A DNA stretch of 64,000 nucleotides from Candidatus Methanomethylophilaceae archaeon (GTDB lineage Archaea > Thermoplasmatota > Thermoplasmata > Methanomassiliicoccales > Methanomethylophilaceae), in contig CALUHR010000013.1 of the NCBI GenBank assembly GCA_944320495.1, positions 354,687-418,686 of the forward strand, written 5' to 3'. Position 1 is the stretch's first letter. Every line of letters starts with the position of its first letter. The notes beneath the pieces were generated by a model. It was not told where the DNA came from. It did not search any database and saw only the letters and a program-made list of their open reading frames with translations. Position numbers and translations under genes: made by a program. This document shows positions 6,308 to 59,209 of the stretch, one piece after another.

Positions 6308-7663
6308 GTGACATATCTCACGGTCCCGTTCTTCACCTACATATTCGCGGTGCTGCCGGTCTGGCTGCCCCTGCTGGCAACGGACCTGGTGGCGCTGTAC
6401 ATCCTCATATTCAGGGAGAGGCACGACCCGAGGACGCTGATATTCTGGGTGGCGGTGGTGTTCATACTGCCGTTCCTAGGCTTCCTCTTCTACCTGCTGT
6501 TCGGCTGCACGCTGTTCGTCAGACGGTGGGGCTCGCGGAAGGAGGCATCCGACAGGAGGTTCCTGTCGGGCGTCTCGGAGGAGCCCCCGGAGGACGGCCG
6601 CAGGCTGTCCAACGTGCTCTCCAGCGCCGGGGCCGACGTGTACACGTCCGGGAACGGCGTCAGGCTGTTCTGGGACGCTCCGGACTCCTGGGGGACCTGC
6701 ATGGACGCCATCCTCGCTGCCAGCCGCAGCGTGCACATCGAGACCAACAGGCTCCCGGACGACCCGTCCCTGAGGGACATGCTGGCCTCCAAGGCGCGGG
6801 AGGGAGTCGACGTCCGCATCGTCACCGGGACCCGCGGGTTCGGGAGGACCCCCGGTCTCCGCGAGCTCAGGCGCGCGGGGGTCAGGTACACAACCTTCCA
6901 CGGATGGTTCCTCTCTACGTTCTCGCTCAGGGTCGAGAGCCGCTGCCTCAGGGATCTCCTCGTGGTCGACGGCTCTGTGGCGTTCACCTGCCTCGGGTCG
7001 TCGATAGAGGTCGAGGGCAGGGCCGCATCCCGCCTGGACCGCAGGTTCCTCGCCGACTGGGCGTTCGCATCCGGGGAGGCCGTCGACGTCCACGAAGACG
7101 TCCAGTCCTCCGACGGCGGGTGCGGGGTGCAGGTGGTCCCGTCCGGTCCCGATTCGTCAGGGATGGCCATGCTCCACGGGTACTCCGAGATAATATCGGA
7201 GGCGAGGGACAGGCTGTACCTCACGTTCCCGTTCCTGATCCCCAACGACGAGATGTACAACGCCATCAAGCAGGCGGTCATCGCGGGCACCGACGTCAGG
7301 ATACTCATCCCGTCGGTCTGCAGGCACTGGTACCAGCCCTGGAACTCCCTTGCCGCCTCCAACCCGCTCATGCAGGCCGGCGCGAGGGTGTACTTCTCTG
7401 ACACGGCGTCGGTGAGATGCCTCGCCGTGGCGGACGGCAGGGTGCTGGCCATGGGGACCGGCGTCTTCAACTCCAGGTCCCTGTGGGCAGACTACGCGGT
7501 GAACGTGGTCGTCAGGTCGGAGGATGTGGCCAGGGACGCCGAGAGGGCGTTCATGGCCGAGCTCGACGGTGCGGCGGAGTGCCTCCCGGAGGAGTACAGC
7601 CGCAGGTCCTTCGCGGATCGCATCAAGATTGCGGTCGCCAGGATGCTGATGTTCCTGAACCGA
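6308..7663 (+). CDS. Cardiolipin-synthase-like PLD-fold membrane protein with both HKD motifs lost; ends at CGA
   Basis: A 451-residue protein with two N-terminal membrane helices (PWLPLLATDLVALYILIF-type hairpin) followed by two phospholipase-D repeats, the architecture of cardiolipin synthase. The position of the first HKD motif reads LRDLLVVDG and of the second VRCLAVADG: the Asp survives, but His and Lys are replaced in both. It should not have PLD chemistry. The only in-frame CGA lies at 7661-7663, after RIKIAVARMLMFLN, where cardiolipin synthases normally end. The standard code reads on to 7888, through the S6e promoter and into S6e. It may be a lipid-binding or regulatory pseudoenzyme. 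Confidence 0.7.
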
Positions 7664-12397: not shown

Positions 12398-13459
12398 TCG
12401 CGAGAAGCCTCGCCTGCGCTTCCTTCCGGACATCGCCACATAGGCGAGCAGATGTTCCAGCTGCACCCTCTCGAGGGGCATGCCCATGCCCCCGGACCCG
12501 CACTGGGCTATGCGGAAGTCCGTCTCCCCGACCTTGTCCAGGAGCCTCACGGCCTCCGCCCCCTCCAGCCCGAGCTCCAAGGCCTGCCTCTGGATCTCCG
12601 TGGCGATCTCGCGGCAGGTCATGCCCTCGCCGATGAGCAGCCCGTCCAGCGCGTCCCTGGCGGCCATGAAGTCGCCCGAGCGTGCCTTGGAGAGCATGTC
12701 CCTGACCCCGTTGGAGGAGCGGGTCTCGGACACGGCGAAGACCGCGTCGAGGTCCACGCGGCCTCTGGTCACGGCGGCCGCCTGGAGCATGGCCATCGCC
12801 CTCCTGATGTCCCCGTCGGCGGCCATGGCGATACCGTCCGCCGCCCCGCGGTCCAGTTCGACGCCCTCGGACTCTGCGACCTCGACGATGCGCTTCGAGA
12901 GGTCGGCGCGGGGTATGGGGACGAACCTGACGACCCCGCACCTGGACCTCACGGGGTCGATTATCATGGACTGGTGGTTGCAGGCGAGGATGAACATGCA
13001 GTTGCGGGAGTAGACCTCCATGGTGCGCCTGAGGGCCTCCTGCACCTCCTTGGACATCGTGTCGACCTCGTCGATGAAGACGACCCTGAACCTGACTCCG
13101 TCTATCGATGCCGTGGACACGAACTCCTTGATTCTCCAGAGGGGGCTGTCCATCGTCTTGGTGACGGTCCTGACGGTCGTCTCTCCCTCGTCATCGGTCT
13201 CCGTGACGGTGACCTCGCGTTTCTTGGTGAGGTCGGAGGCGTCGATCTCCAGGAAGTTGCCCTCGATGTTGCCCTCCAGGACCTCCCTCGCGACGATGAG
13301 CGCGCAGGTGGTCTTGCCGGTCCCCGGGGGGCCCGCCAGGAGGAGGTGCGGCACGCTCTGCTGGGACGTCAGCGGTCTGAGCCTCTCGACGGCCATCGGC
13401 TGGCCCACGATCCCGTCCAGGGATGTCGGCCTGTACTTCTCCATCCAGACGGACTCCAT
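12398..13459 (-). CDS. rfcS: Replication factor C small subunit, ends at CGA
   Basis: A 353-residue clamp-loader ATPase. It shows EKYRPTSLDGIVGQ, Walker A GPPGTGKT (residues 43-50), Walker B VVFIDEVD and the SRC arginine-finger motif. It loads PCNA (gene at 36441) on primed DNA together with a large subunit not seen here. Between Walker A and B there is an insertion of about 25 residues rich in Thr, Glu and Lys. The only in-frame CGA (12400-12398) follows the tail KRRRGFS; the standard code adds 15 residues to 12353. This CGA is the reverse strand of the same CGATCG that ends the permease. Confidence 0.88.
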
Positions 13460-14354: not shown

Positions 14355-16553
14355 TCGCCCGTAGAACGGGACCGAGTCCCAGCCGGTGCGGCGCCTCCTT
14401 ATGCGCCGGCCGGCGTCCTCGTACCCGTCCATGACCTCCTTGGTCACGGACGGCATCACGAGCCCCAGCGCCGCATCGAAATGACGCTGGCACACCTTCG
14501 CGGCCCCGGGGTCCTCGCGGTAGGCGGCCAGTCCCGCCTCGCGGCACACCGAGGCGAGGTCCGCGCCGGTGTAGCCGTCGGTGGACCTCGCGACCGCATC
14601 CAGGTCCACGCCGTCCAGAGGCATCCTCTTTGTGTGCACCGCCAGTATGCTCCTGCGGGCCCTCTCGTCGGGCTTCCCCACGAGGACGAGCCTGTCGAAC
14701 CTGCCGGGCCTCAGCAGGGCCGGGTCTATCATGTCCGGGCGGTTGGTGGCGCCCATGACGGTCACGTTGCGCATGCCCTCGACCCCGTCCATCGAGGTGA
14801 GGAGCTGGGCGACGACCCTCTCCCATGCGGAGCCGTCCCCCGCTCCGCGGATGGGGGCGATCGAGTCCAGCTCGTCGAAGAATATGATGCAGGGGGCCAT
14901 CTGCTTGGCCCTCTTGAAGATCTGACGGATGGCGCGCTCGCTCTCGCCCATCCACTTGCTGGCCATCTCGGGACCGTTGACCGAGATGAAGTTGGTCCCG
15001 GACTCGTTGGCCATCGCCTTCGCTATCAGGGTCTTGCCGGTCCCGGGCGGTCCGTAGAGCAGGACCCCCTTCCCCGGCTCGATGCCGAGCCTCTCGCAGG
15101 GGTTGCCCTCCTCGGTGGACAGCACCTCGCGGATCTGCGCCCTCACATCGTCCAGGCCCCCGACGTCCTCCCAGGTGACCTTGGGGATCTCGACCAGCAC
15201 CTCGCGCATGCCACTGGGCTCCACGTCGGACAGCGCAGCCCTGAAGTCGTCCATGGACACGCGCATGCTCTCGAGGATCTCCGACGGGACCTTCCGGTCC
15301 AGGTCGAACTCCGACATGCGGGCGCTGAGGCAGTGCATGGCGGCCTCCCTGCAGAGGGCGGCCAGGTCGGCGCCCACGAAACCCTGGGTCATGGAGGCGA
15401 GCGCGTCCGGGGTGACGTCCTCGGTCAGTGGCATCTCCCTCAGGTGGACGGAGAGGATGTCCGCCCTCGCCTTCCTCCCGGGAATCCCGACCTCGATCTC
15501 CCTGTCGAACCTTCCAGGGCGTCTCAGCGCCGGGTCGATGGAGTCCTCCCTGTTGGTGGCGCCGATGACTATGACGTTCCCCCTGTCCCCGAGGCCGTCC
15601 ATCAGGGTGAGGAGCTGGGCCACCACCCTGCGCTCCACCTCGCCAGAGACCGCGTCCCTGCTGGGGGCGATGGAGTCTATCTCGTCCAGGAACACGATGC
15701 TGGGTGCGCTCTCCTCCGCCTTCTTGAATATCTCCCTCAGGCGCTCCTCGCTCTGGCCGTAGTACTGGCCCATGATCTCCGGTCCGCGGACCGAGAACAG
15801 GGTGGCGCCCGACTCGTTGGCGACCGCCTCGGCCATGAGGGTCTTCCCTGTGCCGGGCGGTCCGTAGAGGAGTACGCCCCTCGGGGCCCCTATGCCCAGG
15901 CGCTCGAAGAGCTCCGGATGCTTCAGGGGGAGCTCTATCATCTCACGGATGCGCTTCAGCTCGTCATCCAGGCCGCCCACGTCGTCATAGGTGATCTGAT
16001 GGCCGGTCTGGCTCTTCGCCGTCTCACGCTTGCGGGGACCGTCCCTGACGACAACCTTGGTGGATTCCGTGACGATGACCGGTCCCTTCGGGACGGTGGA
16101 TGCGACCGAGAACGTGGAGCGGTTGCCCATGAGGGCGATGTTCGGCACGATGATGTCCGTGTCCGCCACGAGGGGGCGGTTGAGGAGCCCCCGGAGGAAG
16201 ATCTCCTCGATCCCGTCCTCGAACCTGATGCGCTTGCCCTCGGGGATGTTCGGGGAGAGGACGACCTGCTCGGCGGGGGCGGGGTCGCATCTCCTCACGG
16301 TGACGCTCTCGTCCACGCTGACCCCCGCGTTGGTCCTGGTGAGGCCGTCTATCAGCAGCAGGCCGCGGCCCTCGTCCGTCTGGTCGCCCTTGAAGACCTT
16401 GGCGACGACGGTGCGCTTCCCGACGATCTCGATGGTGTCCCCCAGCTCCAGACCGAGGGCCCTGCGGGACTCGGAGTCCATCCTAGCCCTCCCATATCCC
16501 GCCTCGGACTGGGACCTGGCCATCGCGACTTTCAGGACGATCGAATCGGACAT
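14355..16553 (-). CDS. cdc48: Cdc48/VAT AAA+ unfoldase, ends at CGA
   Basis: A 732-residue AAA+ ATPase of the Cdc48/p97/VAT family, a hexameric unfoldase feeding the proteasome. An N-domain of about 190 residues (double-psi barrel) precedes two AAA modules, each with GPPGTGKT, Walker B ([10 protein letters not shown] and [10 protein letters not shown]) and arginine fingers. Full length for the family ends at about residue 730, exactly where the only in-frame CGA stands (14357-14355, after WDSVPFYG). I read all codons and found no other CGA. The standard code would add 270 residues antisense to the ArsR-NifX gene, to 13542. Confidence 0.9.
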
Positions 16554-16583: not shown

Positions 16584-17390
16584 TCATCGCGGTCCCGATC
16601 GCTCCCGCAGGCTTTCCATGGCGTCCGCCGCGTGGGCCCTGAACAGGTCCCTGAACTCGGGGTACTCGCCCATGCCGCGAACGATGCAGCGGGGGTTGTA
16701 CCCGGCCGCGGCCATGACGCTCCTGAGGGAGTCCTCCTCGTCCCCGGCGAGGTCGTTGTTGGCGTGGTCCCCGGCGACGATCATGAGCGGGAACATCGCG
16801 ACATCCTTGCGATCACAGCCCTCCATGAGGCCGAGGGTGCTGTCGTAGTCGGGGAAACCCTCCACCGTCGTGACGTAGACGTCCCTGCGGCCGGAGGCGA
16901 TCAGCCTGAGCTGGAGCTCGCTGTACGCCGAGTTCGCGAAGTGGGTGGTGCCGTGGCCCATGAGCACCATGGCGTCGCCTTCCGCCTCGGGGCCGTATGC
17001 GGCCCCGATCGCCTCGATGAGGGCGTCGAAGTCCTCGGAGGTCGTCAGGAGAGGCCTCCCGACGGTGATGGCGTCGAACCTGTCTCTGCGCCTCTCCACC
17101 TCCTCCATCATGTAGTCGTACTCGACGCCGTTCATCACGAGCGTGGGCTGGACCACCACGGTCCCGTAGCCCTCGTCGGCCAGCCTGTCCAGGGCGGCAT
17201 CGACGAAGTCGACGTGGATGCCCCTCTTCTCGAGGATCCTTATCACCGGACGGCTGGTGAACGCCCTCCTGACATCCCATCCGGGGAAGGATTCTGCGAT
17301 GTGCCTCTCGATGGCGCCGATGGTCTTCTCGCGGGTATCATCGTAGCTCGTCCCGTAGCTGGCGACGAGGATGGCCTTCTTTTCCGACAT
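16584..17390 (-). CDS. cbiK: Anaerobic sirohydrochlorin cobaltochelatase
   Basis: A 268-residue CbiK-type class II chelatase inserting cobalt into sirohydrochlorin at the start of the anaerobic cobamide route. The N-terminus AILVASYGTSYDDTREKTI and the motif VLMGHGTTHFAN with the metal-binding His are diagnostic; a second His lies in the C-terminal half (VAGDHANND). No signal peptide. ATG 17390 is chosen over upstream in-frame starts because homologues begin at MSEKKAIL. It is 30 bases upstream of cdc48 on the same strand. TGA stop. Confidence 0.9.
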   Translation of the reverse strand: MSEKKAILVASYGTSYDDTREKTIGAIERHIAESFPGWDVRRAFTSRPVIRILEKRGIHVDFVDAALDRLADEGYGTVVVQPTLVMNGVEYDYMMEEVERRRDRFDAITVGRPLLTTSEDFDALIEAIGAAYGPEAEGDAMVLMGHGTTHFANSAYSELQLRLIASGRRDVYVTTVEGFPDYDSTLGLMEGCDRKDVAMFPLMIVAGDHANNDLAGDEEDSLRSVMAAAGYNPRCIVRGMGEYPEFRDLFRAHAADAMESLRERSGPR

Positions 17391-31823: not shown

Positions 31824-32633
31824 TCACCCGCATCGGTTTAGGTCCATGCCGAACACGACGGACGGTGCCGCGTATGTGATCGATCCCAGGGAGACGATGT
31901 CCGCCCTGCCGATGTACGCCGGGATGTCGTCCGGGGAGATCCCTCCGGAAGCTTCGACGAGGATGCGGTCGCTGACCGCCTTGACGGCGTCGCGGATCTG
32001 TCCGGTCAGCTCGGGACCGCAGTTGTCGGCCATGACGATGTCCGCTCCCATCTGGGCGGCGGTGACGGCGTCGTCGACGTTCTCCACCTCGACCTCCACC
32101 TTCACGGCGAAGGACCTCTTGGAGAGTCTCTCCATGCAGGCGCGGACGCCCCCGCACGCCTTGATGTGGTTGTCCTTGACCATGATCATGGAGTCGAGGC
32201 CCATCCTATGGGGGTCGCCACCAGCGATCCTCACTGCCTCCTTCTCGAAGTCGCCGAACCCGGGGGTGGTCTTCCTGGTGGCCGCGACGACGATTCTCCC
32301 GTCGGCCTTCGCGACGGCCGCGGAGGTCGCGGTGGCGACCCCCGACATCCTCATCAGGATGTTCAGGGCCGTGCGCTCGATGGTTATCATGGACCTCATG
32401 GGTCCGGAGAGGGAGAGGACCCTCGTGCCGGCCGCGACCCTGTCCCCGTCCCTCACGAGGGGCGTCACGGACACCCCGGCGGACTCGAACAGGTCCTCCA
32501 CGATCGAGATCCCGGCGACGGTGCAATCGCCCTCGCAGACGATGCGGGCGGTGCCGTCCGTGTCCGGGACCGTCAGCTCGGTGGTGATGTCGCCGCGGCC
32601 CACATCGGCCCTGAGGAACCTCTCCGCGTCCAT
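31824..32633 (-). CDS. nadC: Quinolinate phosphoribosyltransferase
   Basis: A 269-residue NadC forming nicotinate mononucleotide from quinolinate and PRPP in de novo NAD synthesis. Signatures: DVGRGDITTEL near the N-terminus, ALNILMRMSGVATAT, ATRKTTPGF and VEVEVENVDDA, ending with EASGGISPDDIPAY. Length fits. It lies 3 bases after the beta-CASP RNase gene on the same strand. ATG 32633 is used; GTG 32639 overlaps the upstream stop. NadA and NadB are not in the window. Confidence 0.95.
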   Translation of the reverse strand: MDAERFLRADVGRGDITTELTVPDTDGTARIVCEGDCTVAGISIVEDLFESAGVSVTPLVRDGDRVAAGTRVLSLSGPMRSMITIERTALNILMRMSGVATATSAAVAKADGRIVVAATRKTTPGFGDFEKEAVRIAGGDPHRMGLDSMIMVKDNHIKACGGVRACMERLSKRSFAVKVEVEVENVDDAVTAAQMGADIVMADNCGPELTGQIRDAVKAVSDRILVEASGGISPDDIPAYIGRADIVSLGSITYAAPSVVFGMDLNRCG

Positions 32634-40726: not shown

Positions 40727-41754
40727 GGCGCGTGCCGATGGCCGAGGTGCCCTCGCGGATCGCGGGGGAGACGATAAACAGGCTGATGTCCCTCGGATAC
40801 GTGGACATCCACGCCAGGATAGCGAAGGGCGACGGCTGCCGTCTGGTGCCGATACTGCCGGAGCACGTGGACGACGTCTCCGCGATGGGGTTCGCCATCA
40901 CGGAGGGAGACGCCCATTCGCTGGACCGCAGGACGCCCCAGGAGAGGATCTCGGAGATCCTCGGGGGCATACCTGAACTGAGGGGTCATCTGCCCGACCG
41001 CTGGGAGTTCGTCGGTGACATCGTCATCCTGAAGCTGGACCCGTCCTGCGAACCGTATCTCGACGGCATCGGTGACGCCTATGCGAAGGTGCTCGGCGCC
41101 AAGACCGTGTGCGCGGACGTCCACGGCGTGTCCGGGGAGTTCCGTCAGCCCAGCATGAGGGTGATCCACGGCACCGAGACCGAGTCGGTGCGTCTCGAGA
41201 ACGGCATCCGTTACCGCTTCGACGTCACCAAGGTCATGTTCGCCTCCGGCAACACGGACGAGCGCATGCGCATGAGGAGCCTGGACTGCACCGGCGAGAC
41301 CGTCGTGGACATGTTCGCTGGCATAGGGTACTTCACCCTCCCGCTGGCCAGGTTCTCTGGGGCCCGCAGGGTCTTCGCCTGCGAGAAGAATCCCGAATCC
41401 TACCATTATCTGGTGGAGAACGTCCGTCTCAACGAGGTGGGCGATGTGGTGCTGCCCATGCTCGGTGACAACCGCTCCATCCCGGGCAGGGACTTCGCGG
41501 ACCGCATCCTGATGGGGTACGTGCAGACGACATCGGAGTTCCTGCCGGCGGCCCTGAGGATGATACGCATCGGCGGGATCATCCACTACCATGACACCTT
41601 CCCGGTGGGCGACCAGGCCCGCAGGGTCGACGAGATCTTCTCGCCGCTCTGCGGATACGAGGTCCTGGGGATCCGCGAGGTGAAGTCCTTCGCCCCGTCG
41701 GTGTCCCATTACGTCGCCGACGTCAGGATAACTTCTCGTTCGCCCCGCAGGCGA
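40723..41754 (+). CDS. taw2: tRNA wybutosine-type transferase Taw2 (Trm5/Tyw2 family), ends at CGA
   Basis: A 343-residue Rossmann-fold enzyme. The SAM motif DMFAGIGYFTLPLA and the N-terminal domain place it with TYW2/Taw2, which transfers the aminocarboxypropyl group of SAM to guanosine 37 derivatives of tRNA-Phe; Trm5 usually has DMFAGVGPF. The FPVGDQARRV region is near the end. The standard-code stop would be TAG at 41770-41772; the first in-frame CGA, 41752-41754, precedes it by five codons. The 3' end overlaps the convergent gene at 41723 by about 30 bases. ATG 40723 overlaps the GGR stop. Confidence 0.82.
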
Positions 41755-53842: not shown

Positions 53843-53917
53843 GCCGCCGTGGCTAAGGGGTATAGCGACGCCTTGGTAAGGCGTAGGTCGTGGGTTCGAT
53901 TCCCATCGGCGGCTCCA
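53843..53917 (+). tRNA. tRNA-Thr (GGT)
   Basis: Acceptor GCCGCCG/CGGCGGC, discriminator T, encoded CCA at 53915-53917. D stem GCTA/TAGC; anticodon stem ACGCC/GGCGT is perfect with loop TTGGTAA, anticodon GGT. T arm GTGGG-TTCGATT-CCCAT. The TATA box TTTATAAG at 53807-53814 is 29 bases upstream. No intron. Confidence 0.9.
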
Positions 53918-54135
53918 TCCATTCTCATACCCTGTCATTCGTGGCCGAGAGGTTTCGTTTCTGTTCACATCGCTCAGGGCATCGGACGGATGCGGCAGCG
54001 ACATCGGATTCCGGGGCGGACACGGGCCCGTTCCCAGAGTTCGTGCCGAGGACAATCGGGGGCGCTGTCCGCGATAGGCCCGGGTCAGAAAGATGGAAGG
54101 TGCCGGGCGTATGCCCAGACGCCCCATACGGTGTT

Positions 54136-55338
54136 TCAGTCCATCTGGTAGATTACGAACCCGGACCAGATCTTCGGGAAGAAGAACGTGGTCTTCTTGG
54201 GCATGCGCTTGCCCTTCATCGAGAGTTCCCAGATGGTGTCGAGGCTCGGGGGGTTGAGCAGGACGGCTGCATCGAACTCGCCGGCATCCATGCGCCTCAT
54301 CACGTCGTCGGCCTCCGCGTCGTAGGAGACGTCCGCCTTGCCCTCGTCGCTCTTGTAGACCCCGTACAGGATCCTCTGCTGGACGGCGTAGGTGTCGAGG
54401 CTCATCATCTCGTTCCCGCCGTCATCGTCGAGGTCGGCGAGCAGGCACTTGCCGGACCTGAAGCGGATGCCCATCATGTGGCCGGGGAGGCGGTCCAGGA
54501 GCTCCTCGACGGGCACCTCCTCGGTCCTGAACGCGGCCGAGACGCCCTTGATGGCGTTCTTCTCGGAGATGTTCCCCGACTTGATCAGGCGGTGGGTCGG
54601 CCAGATCACCAGACCCTTGTCGTCCGCCGGGACGAGGGTGGCCAGAACGTACTGGCGCTTCTCGTCGTCCGGGTTCTCGCGGGCGTAGTTGAGGGCGGTC
54701 TCGTAGCGGTGGTGGCCGTCCGCGATGAGCATCCTCTGATCCTTGAGCTCGGATGTGATGGCGGCGGTTATCTCTGGGTCCGAGAGCCTGTAGTACCTGT
54801 GCTCCACACCGTCGGAGTCGACGTAGCGGTAGACGAGGCGCTCGTTGTCCCTGATCCTCCTGGAGAGCTCCGGGGTCAGCCCGTTGAATATGCCGAAGAT
54901 GGACTCCAGGTGGCAGCCCATGTCCCTGAGGAGGTTGAGGCGGTCGGCCTTGACCTTGGAGAAGGTCTCCTCGTGGGGGATTATGTTGCCCTCCCCGTAG
55001 TCCTCGGTCCTGAGGATCCCGACGATCCCTCTGCGGACGCGCTGCTCGCCGTGGTCGTCGAAGGTCTGCTCGTAGATGTAGAAGGACGGCTCGTCCCTCT
55101 TGAGCTCGTTGTCGGCGATCCACTGATCGAGCTCGGCCTTGGAACCGTGGTACCTCTTGTCGGCGTCGGGGTTGAGCGTCAGCCTGGTGATGTTGTGCGG
55201 TTTGGACTGAAGTTCCTTGAGGTAATCGGGTCCGATCACGTCATAGGGCGGCGAGATGCGGTCACCGATGTGCTCTCCTGCTTTCAGGTTGGGTCTGAGA
55301 CCCTCGAACGGGAGGAAATCCACCATCTTGATCCTCAT
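54136..55338 (-). CDS. DUF1015 family protein
   Basis: A 400-residue soluble protein of the DUF1015 family (often called HTH-less kinase-like, of unknown function). The family marks are DRISPPYDVIGPDYL near the N-terminus, HEETFSKVKADRLNLLRDMG, and MLIADGHHRYETALNY with the conserved His pair. It occurs widely in archaea and bacteria, sometimes near serine biosynthesis genes, though not adjacent here. ATG 55338 is chosen; M5 at 55326 is another option. TGA stop. Confidence 0.85.
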   Translation of the reverse strand: MRIKMVDFLPFEGLRPNLKAGEHIGDRISPPYDVIGPDYLKELQSKPHNITRLTLNPDADKRYHGSKAELDQWIADNELKRDEPSFYIYEQTFDDHGEQRVRRGIVGILRTEDYGEGNIIPHEETFSKVKADRLNLLRDMGCHLESIFGIFNGLTPELSRRIRDNERLVYRYVDSDGVEHRYYRLSDPEITAAITSELKDQRMLIADGHHRYETALNYARENPDDEKRQYVLATLVPADDKGLVIWPTHRLIKSGNISEKNAIKGVSAAFRTEEVPVEELLDRLPGHMMGIRFRSGKCLLADLDDDGGNEMMSLDTYAVQQRILYGVYKSDEGKADVSYDAEADDVMRRMDAGEFDAAVLLNPPSLDTIWELSMKGKRMPKKTTFFFPKIWSGFVIYQMD

Positions 55339-55417
55339 GGTTCCGCATGTCCACGGAATATAAGAGGGGTTCGAGAAGGGGAAGGGGGACCCGCTGGGGA
55401 GAGGATCCGTTTTCCGA

Positions 55418-55768
55418 TTATTCGGATTCGAGGTTCGGATCCCCAATCATGATTAGAGGTCTGATCTCCAGACTGTAGTACAGTATGTGCCAGATTGCCA
55501 CCCCGAAGAGGAATCCCGCCACGGTGCCCGCGACGACGAAGGTCGGATTGTAGGTCTCCATGATCCACCAGTATGCCGCAGTTATGATGACCGCCGGTAT
55601 CGCATAGGCGATGCAGCGGATCAGCCTCTTCTGGTCGGACCATATCTCTGATCCGTCAATCCCGATAATGCCCAGTTTCCTGTTGCATCTGCTGACCAGG
55701 ATGAATGCTATCACCAAGGTGATGAGTGGTGGAATTAGACACAGGGTGGTGGGATGCATTTTCACCAT
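55418..55768 (-). CDS. Small membrane protein, unknown function
   Basis: About 116 residues with three or four membrane helices (TTLCLIPPLITLVIAFILV and FVVAGTVAGFLFGVAIWHILYY are two of them) and a short charged loop. Family unknown. ATG 55768 (or 55759); the longer in-frame start at 55840 adds a hydrophilic stretch. TAA stop. It lies in AT-rich sequence next to a transposase-like gene, which hints at recent insertion or relaxed selection. Confidence 0.45.
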   Translation of the reverse strand: MVKMHPTTLCLIPPLITLVIAFILVSRCNRKLGIIGIDGSEIWSDQKRLIRCIAYAIPAVIITAAYWWIMETYNPTFVVAGTVAGFLFGVAIWHILYYSLEIRPLIMIGDPNLESE

Positions 55769-55988
55769 TCTTCTACTTCGTAACCGTTGGGTACGGTATG
55801 CCAAACAACCCACGTTTCGTAGACCGCATAGTTCTTGCAATCAGCAATCAGTTTTCCGTACATTCAACCCTCCCGACCGTTAGGTCGAAAAATGAATCGT
55901 TCGAAGCTCAATATTTAAAGATTATATTCGAAAATTATGAAAAATTAAAATGTAGTCACACAGCCATCATATGATTCAAAGTGCTACA

Positions 55989-57458
55989 TCGCTCGGCGGA
56001 ACCGAACAGATCCATGACCCTCTTGGTATCCGGGGAAACATCGGAATGGAATCTGAATCCGTTGCTCACGATGGTCACATATCTCGAGGCCAGCGAGAAC
56101 GCGTCATCAACTGTGAGTCTGGAGTCGCCGTCTTCGAGAATCTGGGCTATGGCGGTGCGTATGCCTGTTGACAGGAACATCAGGAACCTTTCCCATCCAT
56201 GACTTCCTGATGAATCGGCCGAGAAGATGCTGTCGATGAGTGCATGGGATTGCTTCAGAGTCATGCTCCTCAGATTAATGAGATCCATGGCATACTCCCA
56301 TTGCTCTTCCGTGGTCAGTATCACCGATGATCCGATGCATCCGTCAATCTCTGATATCAGATGCGATGTCGCGGAGTCATTGTGCGGCAGATTGTTGTAC
56401 CTCAGCATCCTAGATACGCTGGATTCCGTGTATCCGATGCTCTTTGTCATGTTCCTGATGTGGCGGACCGGTTTTGTCAGGAACACATTAAAGGTGAACA
56501 TGCAATCATCATTTCCTCTGCCACGGTCGACATATGTCCAAGCTCCGTTGTTCAGTCTTATCCCGAGACATCCTTGGTACACATCATGCTCTATTCCATG
56601 ATGCTCAGCTTTGTGATATTCTGTGGCCATCATGCCCAGGGCTGAGCGCAGAGTGTCAGAGCATGTCCCGATTCTCATAGTCATCCTGTCTCCGTCCATG
56701 AGCATCCTGGCGATCTCCGGGGGATTGTCCGAAATCTCGTCCAGGACCCTGACGAGTCTGACGTTCGTACCTGTCGCGATGGCCATGCGTCTCCACGCAC
56801 CCGCGTTCATGCTCCTGCCGATGGTAGCGCCTGCGGCTATGGGGCGGCCCATGTCATCGGAGCAGAAAATCAGCGACACGTCGTCCGCATCGTGGTCCAT
56901 CGGGCTCTTCATGGATGCGTGTCTGAGTCCCCCGTTCCTGCCCGAGAGTCCGAAGACGATGACAGGGCCGTCGGATCCCTCGCGGATCGTCCATGCATAC
57001 CTCTTGATCGATTCGTAGTCTATCTTCGATATTGCCCTTCTGATCAATCCAGCGGTGGATGCTGCATCGCCGAGGACCGGTTCGAGGTCCAAACCTCTGA
57101 GGAGACGGATACGGTCGGCACTAGGCAGGGGATTGATCGCATAGCAGATAGCCAATGCGAGCATCATGTCTCCGTCATCGCCGAAGACGCATCTGAGTGC
57201 ATCCCTCATCCCGCATCTCTCTGCTGCGTTGGAGGCAATCAGCACGCTTCCGCGATCGAGGGTGGAGAACCTTCCATCGGACAGCATGGAGCATGCCGCA
57301 TCGATCGGCAGCGGTTTCACATCGACCATCCCGGTCTTCGGATCGAGGATGCCGATGTACTCCTTCATGCTCACAGGGTTCTTCCTACCAGGGACGCGTC
57401 TCGACTCCGTCCGGTAGACGTACGTCCTGCCGTTCCTTTCCACGTACACTATGGGCAT
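55989..57458 (-). CDS. Transposase-like protein (IS1634/IS4-type?), ends at CGA
   Basis: A 489-residue protein. The N-terminus (MPIVYVERNGRTYVYRTESR) resembles IS1634-type transposases, and the middle (VSLIFCSDDMGRPIAAG) has the same placement as their catalytic region, but I cannot see a clear DDE triad. It may be a degraded or domesticated transposase. GC and codon usage differ from neighbours. The first in-frame CGA, 55991-55989, follows DLFGSAE, ten codons before the standard TGA at 55956-55958, and no other CGA is in frame. No terminal inverted repeats found. Confidence 0.45.
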
Positions 57459-57493
57459 GATGCGGGAGAGCGGTCGGGGATCGGGCCCCCGGA

Positions 57494-58540
57494 TCAGCAG
57501 ATTCTGGGCACGGGGTCGCCCGCGGGCGGCTCCAGGATGCGCCTGCCACCGACCTCGGTCCTGAGGACGACCCTCTCCGGTCCGTCCACGGCATGGCCGA
57601 TGATGGCCGCATCCTTGCCCTCGGGGGTGGACCTGATGGCCTTGAGCACCTCGTCCGCCATCTCCGGCACGACGCCAATCACGCATTTCCCTTCGTTGCC
57701 AATCGCCAGCGGGTCTATTCCCAGCAGTTCGCATGCGTTGACGACACCGTCCCTCAGAGGGATGGATGGGTAGTCGATCTCCATGCCGACGTGGGACTTG
57801 GAGCACCACTCGTTGAGGGTGTTCGCCAGACCTCCCCTGGTCGGGTCCTTCATGGCCACTATGCCCCCCGCGGTCAGTCCCTTGGCGATCATCTTGTTCA
57901 GCGGTGCAACGTCGCTCTGGACCTCGCTGTCGAAGCCGTAGCCCTCGCGGAAGGAGAGCAGCGCGATGCCGTGGTCGCCGACGTATCCGGACACGATGAT
58001 GGCGTCGCCGGGCCTGACGTTGGAGTCGGTGCACCAGCGGTGGTCCACCTTCCTGTACTCCGCGGCCTTGGCCAGGTCGCTGTCCAGAAGGTCGGATCTC
58101 TTTCCGACGGCGGCGGTGGACATGACCATCTGCTCCACTGCGCCTGCCTCCACGACCTTGGTGTCGCCGGTCGCTATGGGCACTCCCGCGCCCTCGGCGG
58201 TCCTGCCCATGGAGTCCATGACCCTGTCGACGATGTCGACGTCCAGCCCCTCCTCCATTATGACGGAGCAGGCCAGAGCGAGGGGGGTGGCCCCCATGAC
58301 GGATATGTCGTTCACGGTGCCAGCCACGGAGATCTTGCCGATGTCCCCTCCGGGGAAGAACAGCGGCTTCACGGTGTGCCCGTCGATGGTGAAGACGATG
58401 TCGTCCACGACGGCGGAGTCGTCCATGGAGTCGAGGGGGACCTCGGCGTCCATCTTCGGGAAGTGCTTCGTGATGTGGTCGGAGAGGAACTGCTGCATGA
58501 GCTCCCCGCCGGCTCCGTGGTTGAGAATCACCTTGGGCAT
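57494..58540 (-). CDS. hypE: Hydrogenase maturation protein HypE
   Basis: A 348-residue PurM-fold enzyme that dehydrates its C-terminal thiocarbamate to thiocyanate, making cyanide ligands for NiFe hydrogenase. Signatures: LNHGAGGELMQQFLSDHI, DSMDDSAVVDDIVFTIDGH, and the C-terminal PRIC carrying the reactive Cys. Length is normal. Its presence implies a NiFe hydrogenase elsewhere. It is immediately upstream of the transposase-like gene on the same strand and divergent from tRNA-Arg(UCG). TGA stop. Confidence 0.96.
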   Translation of the reverse strand: MPKVILNHGAGGELMQQFLSDHITKHFPKMDAEVPLDSMDDSAVVDDIVFTIDGHTVKPLFFPGGDIGKISVAGTVNDISVMGATPLALACSVIMEEGLDVDIVDRVMDSMGRTAEGAGVPIATGDTKVVEAGAVEQMVMSTAAVGKRSDLLDSDLAKAAEYRKVDHRWCTDSNVRPGDAIIVSGYVGDHGIALLSFREGYGFDSEVQSDVAPLNKMIAKGLTAGGIVAMKDPTRGGLANTLNEWCSKSHVGMEIDYPSIPLRDGVVNACELLGIDPLAIGNEGKCVIGVVPEMADEVLKAIRSTPEGKDAAIIGHAVDGPERVVLRTEVGGRRILEPPAGDPVPRIC

Positions 58541-58630
58541 GGGACGGTGGATTCGGGAGACGGCATATACTGGTTTCCCAGGGGACCTTGAGGCAATCCG
58601 TTAATTATGTGGTAGATAATCGAGACGGCG

Positions 58631-58702
58631 GGCCCTGTGGGGTAGCGGATATCCCGTCAGATTTCGGCACTGACAATCCGGGTTCGATTCCCGGCAGGGC
58701 CG
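58631..58702 (+). tRNA. tRNA-Arg (TCG), unusual anticodon stem and no encoded CCA
   Basis: Acceptor GGCCCTG/CAGGGCC pairs perfectly; discriminator G; T arm CCGGG-TTCGATT-CCCGG is intact. The anticodon stem TCAGA/ACTGA has four pairs and an A-A clash at 31-39. Loop TTTCGGC gives anticodon TCG (58664-58666), the cognate of CGA and, by wobble, CGG. The 3' end reads GCCT, so CCA is not encoded, unlike the two other tRNA genes here. The AT-rich TTAATTATG at 58601-58609 may be its promoter. Confidence 0.75.
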
Positions 58703-58711
58703 CCTGTTTCT

Positions 58712-59209
58712 TCATTCGCCGGTGTACTTGCCGACGGTCTTGCAGTGGGCGAGCACGTGCCCGTCCATGGCGAAGTACAGGTCGTTGAGCCTGAAGCCGC
58801 TGGGCAGTCCGAGCTCGGTGTCGAGTGCGTAGACCTTCAGGGTGTACCTATGCATCCCGTTGGGCGGGGCCATGCCGCCGTATCCGGTGGCCTGCTCCCT
58901 CGTCAGTCCTCCGAGCGCGCTGAACCAGCTGTTGGAGCCCTCGGTGAATCCGGCGCCGGTGCGGGTGGCCCCCTCGGCGACCTCCGTCTCCTTGAGATCG
59001 CAGATGAGCCAGTGGACCCAGAGGAACCCGGCTGCGGAGACGGCGTCGTAGTCGTCGAGGATGACGGCGAAGCTCTTCGTGCCCTCGGGGGCGTCCTCGA
59101 TCCTGAACCCGGGGGAGATCCCGGGCATGCCGTTGTGGTCGGCGGAGCCCTTGCATCCGTACTCGTTGCCGAACCATCCGTCCCTGATGGCGCTGCAGAC
59201 GACCCTCAT
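58712..59209 (-). CDS. YbhB/YbcL-type PEBP family protein
   Basis: A 165-residue phosphatidylethanolamine-binding-protein fold. KSFAVILDDYDAVSAAGFLWVHWLICDL is the anion-site region, and YGGMAPPNGMHRYTLKVYAL the second signature of the bacterial/archaeal subfamily. Cytoplasmic, no signal peptide. Ligand and role unknown. It is one base away from apt on the same strand. ATG 59209, TGA stop. Confidence 0.9.
   Translation of the reverse strand: MRVVCSAIRDGWFGNEYGCKGSADHNGMPGISPGFRIEDAPEGTKSFAVILDDYDAVSAAGFLWVHWLICDLKETEVAEGATRTGAGFTEGSNSWFSALGGLTREQATGYGGMAPPNGMHRYTLKVYALDTELGLPSGFRLNDLYFAMDGHVLAHCKTVGKYTGE

Follow-up and report, generated by a model that had tools for sequence, protein, structure and literature searches.

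To our knowledge, changes of a sense codon to a stop codon have been described only from organelles. Examples come from the mitochondria of green algae (PMC6821328) and of pedinophytes (PMC12574857). The CGA and CGG reassignments reported from a large survey with Codetta are sense-to-sense changes in low-GC bacteria, and in three cases the change involves loss of tRNA-Arg(UCG); because its choice is limited to 20 amino acids, Codetta would not report a change to stop (PMC8629427). Release factor genes with a stop codon inside them form the second set of related systems. In the programmed frameshift of bacterial RF2 (prfB), an early in-frame stop is read by the gene's own product, an arrangement that is strongly conserved and has been lost in some lineages (PMC12421855). 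In Mimivirus and Megavirus, an eRF1-like gene carries an internal UGA-C that is read through, for which autoregulation has been proposed; a second stop is passed by frameshift, a near-cognate Trp tRNA is thought to do the reading, and such mechanisms were stated to be absent from archaeal homologs (PMC3521657).

Here, we describe a tRNA-Arg(UCG) gene located in a stretch of archaeal DNA of 64,000 nucleotides (hereafter the window), together with the use of its codon, CGA, in the Methanomethylophilaceae genus that includes UBA71; proteins encoded beside it matched metagenome-assembled Methanomassiliicoccales of this genus. We compared 31 genomes of this genus, among them that of the window (G000; 1.77 Mb in 14 contigs), with outgroups from within the family (G031-G035) and within the order (G036-G057); most of these genomes are metagenome assemblies. 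CGA as a fourth stop codon in the genus is very strongly supported by where the codon occurs and where it is avoided, and the gene for the archaeal release factor aRF1 carries one CGA inside it. On balance, we lean towards an archaeal cellular code in which CGA is a stop and a tuned-down cognate tRNA acts as dedicated suppressor for a single release factor codon, in the manner of a thermostat. Among open-licence papers, we found none on a CGA stop in archaea or in Methanomassiliicoccales. The closest likeness is to Mimivirus, where a release factor of the eukaryotic and archaeal type likewise has an internal stop in a weak context that has to be passed; unlike in the virus, aRF1 is cellular, the codon is CGA and not UGA, the frame is kept and the tRNA is cognate. 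As in prfB, the aRF1 gene would possess an early internal stop that is read by its own product, followed by C at position +4 and strongly conserved, whereas it differs from prfB in being of archaeal/eukaryotic type, in using the former sense codon CGA, and in readthrough by a cognate tRNA with no shift of frame. A sense codon would have become a stop as in the mitochondrial cases, which concern organelle genomes with few genes, whereas here whole archaeal genomes are involved and most of the genus has kept the cognate tRNA. The cases found with Codetta also concern a rare Arg codon changing its meaning; the present change would instead be sense-to-stop and in archaea of 52-63% GC.

Apart from its anticodon stem, tRNA-Arg(UCG) folded into a cloverleaf with intact acceptor, D and T arms and the anticodon UCG (ARAGORN, Rfam; Table 1), which agrees with an earlier note on this DNA that had called the acceptor and T arm perfect. 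In the anticodon stem, T27-A43, C28-G42, A29-T41 and G30-C40 are paired and A31.A39 is not, and the loop is U32 U33 U34 C35 G36 G37 C38, so that it is the A-A at 31-39 that keeps this tRNA from having a fully paired anticodon stem with U33. The same note had pointed to this A-A clash, which was seen by direct reading and proved to be the sole 31-39 mismatch among the 43 scored tRNA genes of G000; among 42 scored tRNA genes of G028, the genome at the base of the genus, there was none. A second oddity to which it had drawn attention, a 3' end without CCA, is real as an observation (the gene ends in G73-CCT, and both other tRNA genes in the window encode CCA) and carries no weight, because 18 of the 45 tRNA genes of the genome, those for Arg(UCU) and Arg(CCG) among them, likewise end without CCA, and the genome has a gene for a CCA-adding enzyme of the archaeal type (TIGR03671, 412.7 bits). 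The absent CCA was ruled out as a sign of decay on the same grounds. AT-rich, TATA-like elements were situated at a similar distance upstream of tRNA-Arg(UCG) in other genomes of the genus. The HypE-like upstream neighbour was used for the synteny test of tRNA loss. The HypE region has tRNA-Thr(GGU) and tRNA-Arg(UCG) on its two sides in many of the family's genera (53843-58704 in the window, and relatives).

Table 1. Features of the window around tRNA-Arg(UCG), and genes of the window with a CGA codon at the end of their conserved part.
Feature	Position	Strand	Basis and remarks
tRNA-Arg(UCG) gene, CCA not encoded	58631..58704	+	ARAGORN; Rfam RF00005 over 58631-58702, 55.7 bits
A31, 7-base anticodon loop TTTCGGC, A39	58661..58669	+	Direct reading; A31 (58661) and A39 (58669) unpaired; anticodon UCG at 58664-58666
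TTAATTAT, TATA-like element about 25-30 bases upstream of the tRNA	58600..58610	+	Direct reading; putative promoter role
HypE-like AIR synthase-related protein, upstream neighbour	57494..58540	-	Pfam PF00586, PF02769
PEBP-family protein, other neighbour	58712..59209	-	Pfam PF01161
CDC48, CGA end at codon 733	14355..14357	-	Canonical stop 270 codons further
Cardiolipin synthase-like (Cls), CGA end at codon 452/526	7661..7663	+	Profile match to residue 447
Replication factor C small subunit (RfcS), CGA end at codon 350/368	12410..12412	-	Profile match to residue 347
Sirohydrochlorin cobaltochelatase-like (CbiK), CGA end at codon 288/292	16599..16601	-	Profile match to residue 284
NadC, CGA end at codon 269/271	31833..31835	-	Profile match to residue 266
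Taw2/Trm5-like, CGA end at codon 347/352	41752..41754	+	Profile match to residue 339

A covariance model built from homologs of tRNA-Arg(UCG) identified the gene in 27 of the 31 genus genomes. A BLAST search with the tRNA had suggested absence from 13 genomes, a result that was discarded when the covariance model found a diverged copy in most of them. Anticodon arms were read for 26 of the 27 (that of G008 is identical to G000), and all 26 depart from the form of the outgroups, which within the family have a paired 31-39 and U33 (C-G at 31-39 in the outgroup DTU008, read by eye). The departures fall into two groups: one keeps U33 and has a 31-39 mismatch in 18 of 18 genomes (A.A in 11, C.A in 7), and the other has C33 in 8 of 8, with a 27-43 mismatch in 7 of these. 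U33 is near-universal in tRNAs, and changes at U33 or in the lower anticodon stem weaken decoding; we infer that the changes in this genus do the same. Since pairs 28-42 and 29-41 vary in a compensated fashion within the genus while 31-39 remains broken, the arm appears to be maintained but altered, and the compensated stem changes, together with the upstream TATA-like element, are as expected of an expressed gene.

The aRF1 gene of G000 is single (C2:85936-87165) and contains one CGA only, at codon 77 of about 410. This codon falls within an N-domain helix, at a position that is Arg in other archaea (Lys in one of them). Of the 27 genus genomes with the position covered, 26 have CGA there; the 19 outgroups have AGA, AGG, CGC, CGG, CGT or AAG and never CGA. 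We did not accept a fixed rare codon as sufficient proof, as CGT at codon 185 is fixed too (28 of 28 genus genomes), yet 11 of the 19 outgroups share it, unlike the CGA. Because the protein downstream of codon 77 stays in the same frame, production of aRF1 requires an amino acid, presumably Arg, to be inserted at the CGA, and for the same reason the arrangement is not a frameshift of the prfB type, though it would work like the control of RF2. Under standard wobble rules, CGA can be read here by tRNA-Arg(UCG) alone. With a single aRF1 gene whose CGA has to be translated, it is almost certain that the tRNA works. The immediate neighbours of the codon are also constrained: codon 76 was covered in 25 genus cases and is GCT or TCT in each, although Ala and Ser codons with a final T have a share of about 5% in the rest of aRF1; Leu78 is written CTC, CTA or CTT, with CTG absent; and AAA encodes Lys79 in 19 of 27 cases versus 11% elsewhere. 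All 25 sequences with both flanks thus have the context T-CGA-C, and C at +4 is rare at stops in general, following 25 of 278 canonical stops (9%) and 4 of 32 CGA stops. The +4 base of the internal stop of E. coli prfB is C as well. Around codon 77, an extended conserved RNA element was sought and none was found, constraint being limited to the adjoining positions.

Elsewhere in aRF1, the NIKS and YxCxxxF motifs are kept, and T63 and A76, close to codon 77, are specific to the genus. Codons 26-30, in the GTx loop, which participates in stop codon reading in eRF1, encode RSTEL in G000 and in G008, a nearly identical sister genome, and a glycine precedes TEL in all other genomes compared. Synonymous sites around the GGQ motif (codons 177-191) are unusually fixed, with GGA at codon 179 in 28 of 28 genus genomes. 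The arginyl-tRNA synthetase gene argS follows aRF1 in the same direction in G000 and in the relatives looked at. Near aRF1 there is also a fast-evolving gene (C1:295584-296774 in G007, and homologs) with weak MarR-like and TPR similarity and no family above cut-off. It contains a single internal CGA in G003, G007 and G009 (at the same site), in G019 and G030 (at another) and in G005 (at a third), one in-frame TAG in G012 and G013, and no internal CGA or TAG in 20 others. It may be a second termination-sensing gene.

In G028, placed at the base of the genus by the aRF1 tree, codon 77 of aRF1 is CGC, and no tRNA-Arg(UCG) was found between HypE and PEBP, in a locus that is otherwise intact. The genome gave 43 tRNA hits. 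Roughly 42 of these were read, and compared with the isoacceptors of G000 the set lacks just two: Arg(UCG) and the Trp tRNA with an intron, for which ARAGORN made no call. Both the aRF1 CGA and tRNA-Arg(UCG) are therefore missing from G028, a joint absence that concerns this one genome. Its basal position makes two histories possible, namely that G028 lost both or that the aRF1 CGA arose in the sister branch; under either, by this comparison of genomes, the aRF1 CGA and tRNA-Arg(UCG) go together. The aRF1 gene of G028 itself apparently ends in CGA, the next canonical stop lying well past the end of its homologs. In G016 and G013, which have the aRF1 CGA, no tRNA-Arg(UCG) was found in the incomplete assemblies available (35 and 41 tRNA hits, versus 44 in G000), and none was present in the HypE region of G016 (E27__bin288), which is rearranged; the incomplete assembly of G017 likewise yielded none. 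We do not claim loss of the tRNA in G016 or G013, as their assemblies are short of other tRNAs or have the region missing or rearranged.

We propose that tRNA-Arg(UCG) is kept because the aRF1 gene itself has CGA at codon 77, and consider it likely that a detuned tRNA competes with aRF1 at CGA and has been retained for self-regulation of the release factor. The tRNA would still read CGA, but poorly and deliberately so, owing to the broken 31-39 pair in some members of the genus and to C33 in others, and CGA would be recognised by aRF1. In the resulting contest, the tRNA would normally lose and CGA would end genes. Where aRF1 is plentiful, translation of its own message would stop at codon 77 and leave a fragment of 76 residues without the catalytic GGQ domain; where it is scarce, the tRNA would insert Arg and full-length aRF1 would be made. 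The CGA of codon 77 would then be a feedback sensor of the amount of release factor, a role suggested by its position, conservation and context. The possibility raised earlier that a functional tRNA would argue against reassignment presents a false choice, since function and reassignment can coexist, with the CGA of aRF1 read and CGA elsewhere a stop.

The best surviving alternative is that the tRNA is on its way out, its arm changes being decay and the aRF1 CGA an inefficiently read leftover with no regulatory role. The gene has already gone from one genome and the arm changes vary between subclades, as decay would have it. A leftover CGA could, however, have given way to one of the five alternative Arg codons and was kept in 26 of 27 genomes; third bases around codon 77 vary, yet the preceding base and the following codons are confined to rare choices; and the acceptor, the T arm and the upstream element are all intact. 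We therefore regard decay as unlikely. The earlier note had itself raised the idea of a tRNA losing its ability to read CGA, which is partly right, in that the anticodon arm is disturbed throughout the genus and the gene is gone in G028.

The proposed contest presupposes that CGA is a stop. We counted internal CGA codons in conserved gene cores with overlap masking, covering about 120,900 codons in 20 genus genomes; earlier counts on stop-to-stop ORFs were dropped because wrong frames and sequence preceding the start codon produced many spurious internal CGAs. The cores contained 33 internal CGAs, of which 19 were codon 77 of aRF1 and four lay in one fast-evolving regulator, the remaining 10 being in low-identity ORFs that mostly had the appearance of wrong frames. 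In 36,931 codons from five further genera of the family there were 29 CGAs, from which about 95 would be expected in the genus, and with aRF1 and the doubtful ORFs excluded CGA is some 25 times rarer inside genes than in these sister genera. Where CGA does occur is at gene ends. The premise that the codon behaves like a stop was borne out in the window by six genes (Cls, RfcS, CbiK, CDC48, NadC and Taw2) that complete their family profile shortly before the first CGA. For CDC48, the profile match extends to residue 716 (727 of 733 model positions), and VCP-like PDB chains cease to match it at residues 684-730. Beyond the conserved part, the first CGA usually lies 1 to 4 codons past the end of the homologs, and canonical stops follow up to 347 codons later. 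A CGA at the C-terminal end of the homologs and with no stop nearby was found in G000 for CDC48, Cls and pelota, whose frame stays open beyond the CGA into a homocitrate synthase-like gene, and also in G028, G025, G026 and G014; CGA placed where the homologs end recurs in many genomes of the genus. At many CGA ends a canonical stop follows after several codons, and a small number of these ends may therefore be short sense extensions; the nearby backup stops to be expected if CGA stops are leaky were not clearly in evidence (p = 0.04 and 0.14), the signal being weak and not significant with a wider cut-off. Because CGA is nearly absent within conserved genes and is placed where homologous proteins end, it appears to act as a stop, and we infer from these patterns that it terminates translation in the cell.

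Another reading is editing of the mRNA: C-to-U changes would turn CGA into UGA and the tRNA would read unedited CGA only. A single such change separates the two codons, and editing would account for stopping with no new specificity of aRF1. No local motif common to the CGA stops was evident, however, and under editing one would expect the absence of the tRNA from G028 to be of no consequence, which makes this reading very unlikely. Still less probable is that CGA is merely a very rare sense codon, the tRNA its ordinary reader and the A-A mismatch neutral. Conservation of the tRNA-Arg(UCG) gene and the need to decode the aRF1 CGA as an amino acid would fit; against it stand the clustering of CGA exactly at the ends of homologs, its rarity inside genes relative to the sister genera, and the in-frame fusion of adjoining genes that would follow from reading CGA as Arg (pelota, CDC48). 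CGA moreover terminates 8 of 13 genes sampled in G028, of which it is the main stop in that sample.

The Arg tRNA set of G000 is full (GCG, UCG, CCG, UCU and CCU). A genome search for tRNA-Arg(CCG), suggested in the earlier note, located that gene at C5:127661-127734, so tRNA-Arg(UCG) is dispensable for CGG and was ruled out as being required for it. U34 tRNAs commonly read both A and G in the third position, but that this one mainly serves CGG, with CGA secondary, or is restricted to CGG as had also been considered, is scarcely plausible when tRNA-Arg(CCG) is present in both G000 and G028 and G028 still uses CGG with its UCG tRNA missing.

If true, a CGA stop in whole archaeal genomes would extend the change from sense to stop to free-living cells, and aRF1 would be the first archaeal release factor with an internal stop. 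The tRNA would explain the dual meaning of CGA, a stop almost everywhere and Arg at the one site where competition of the tRNA with the release factor serves a purpose. Across the genus there would be intermediate states, in which the tRNA is kept and weakened, and an end state, in which it is lost and CGA is the main stop in the genes sampled, and together these would make models of codon reassignment directly testable. Gene callers that read through CGA would mis-annotate these genomes.
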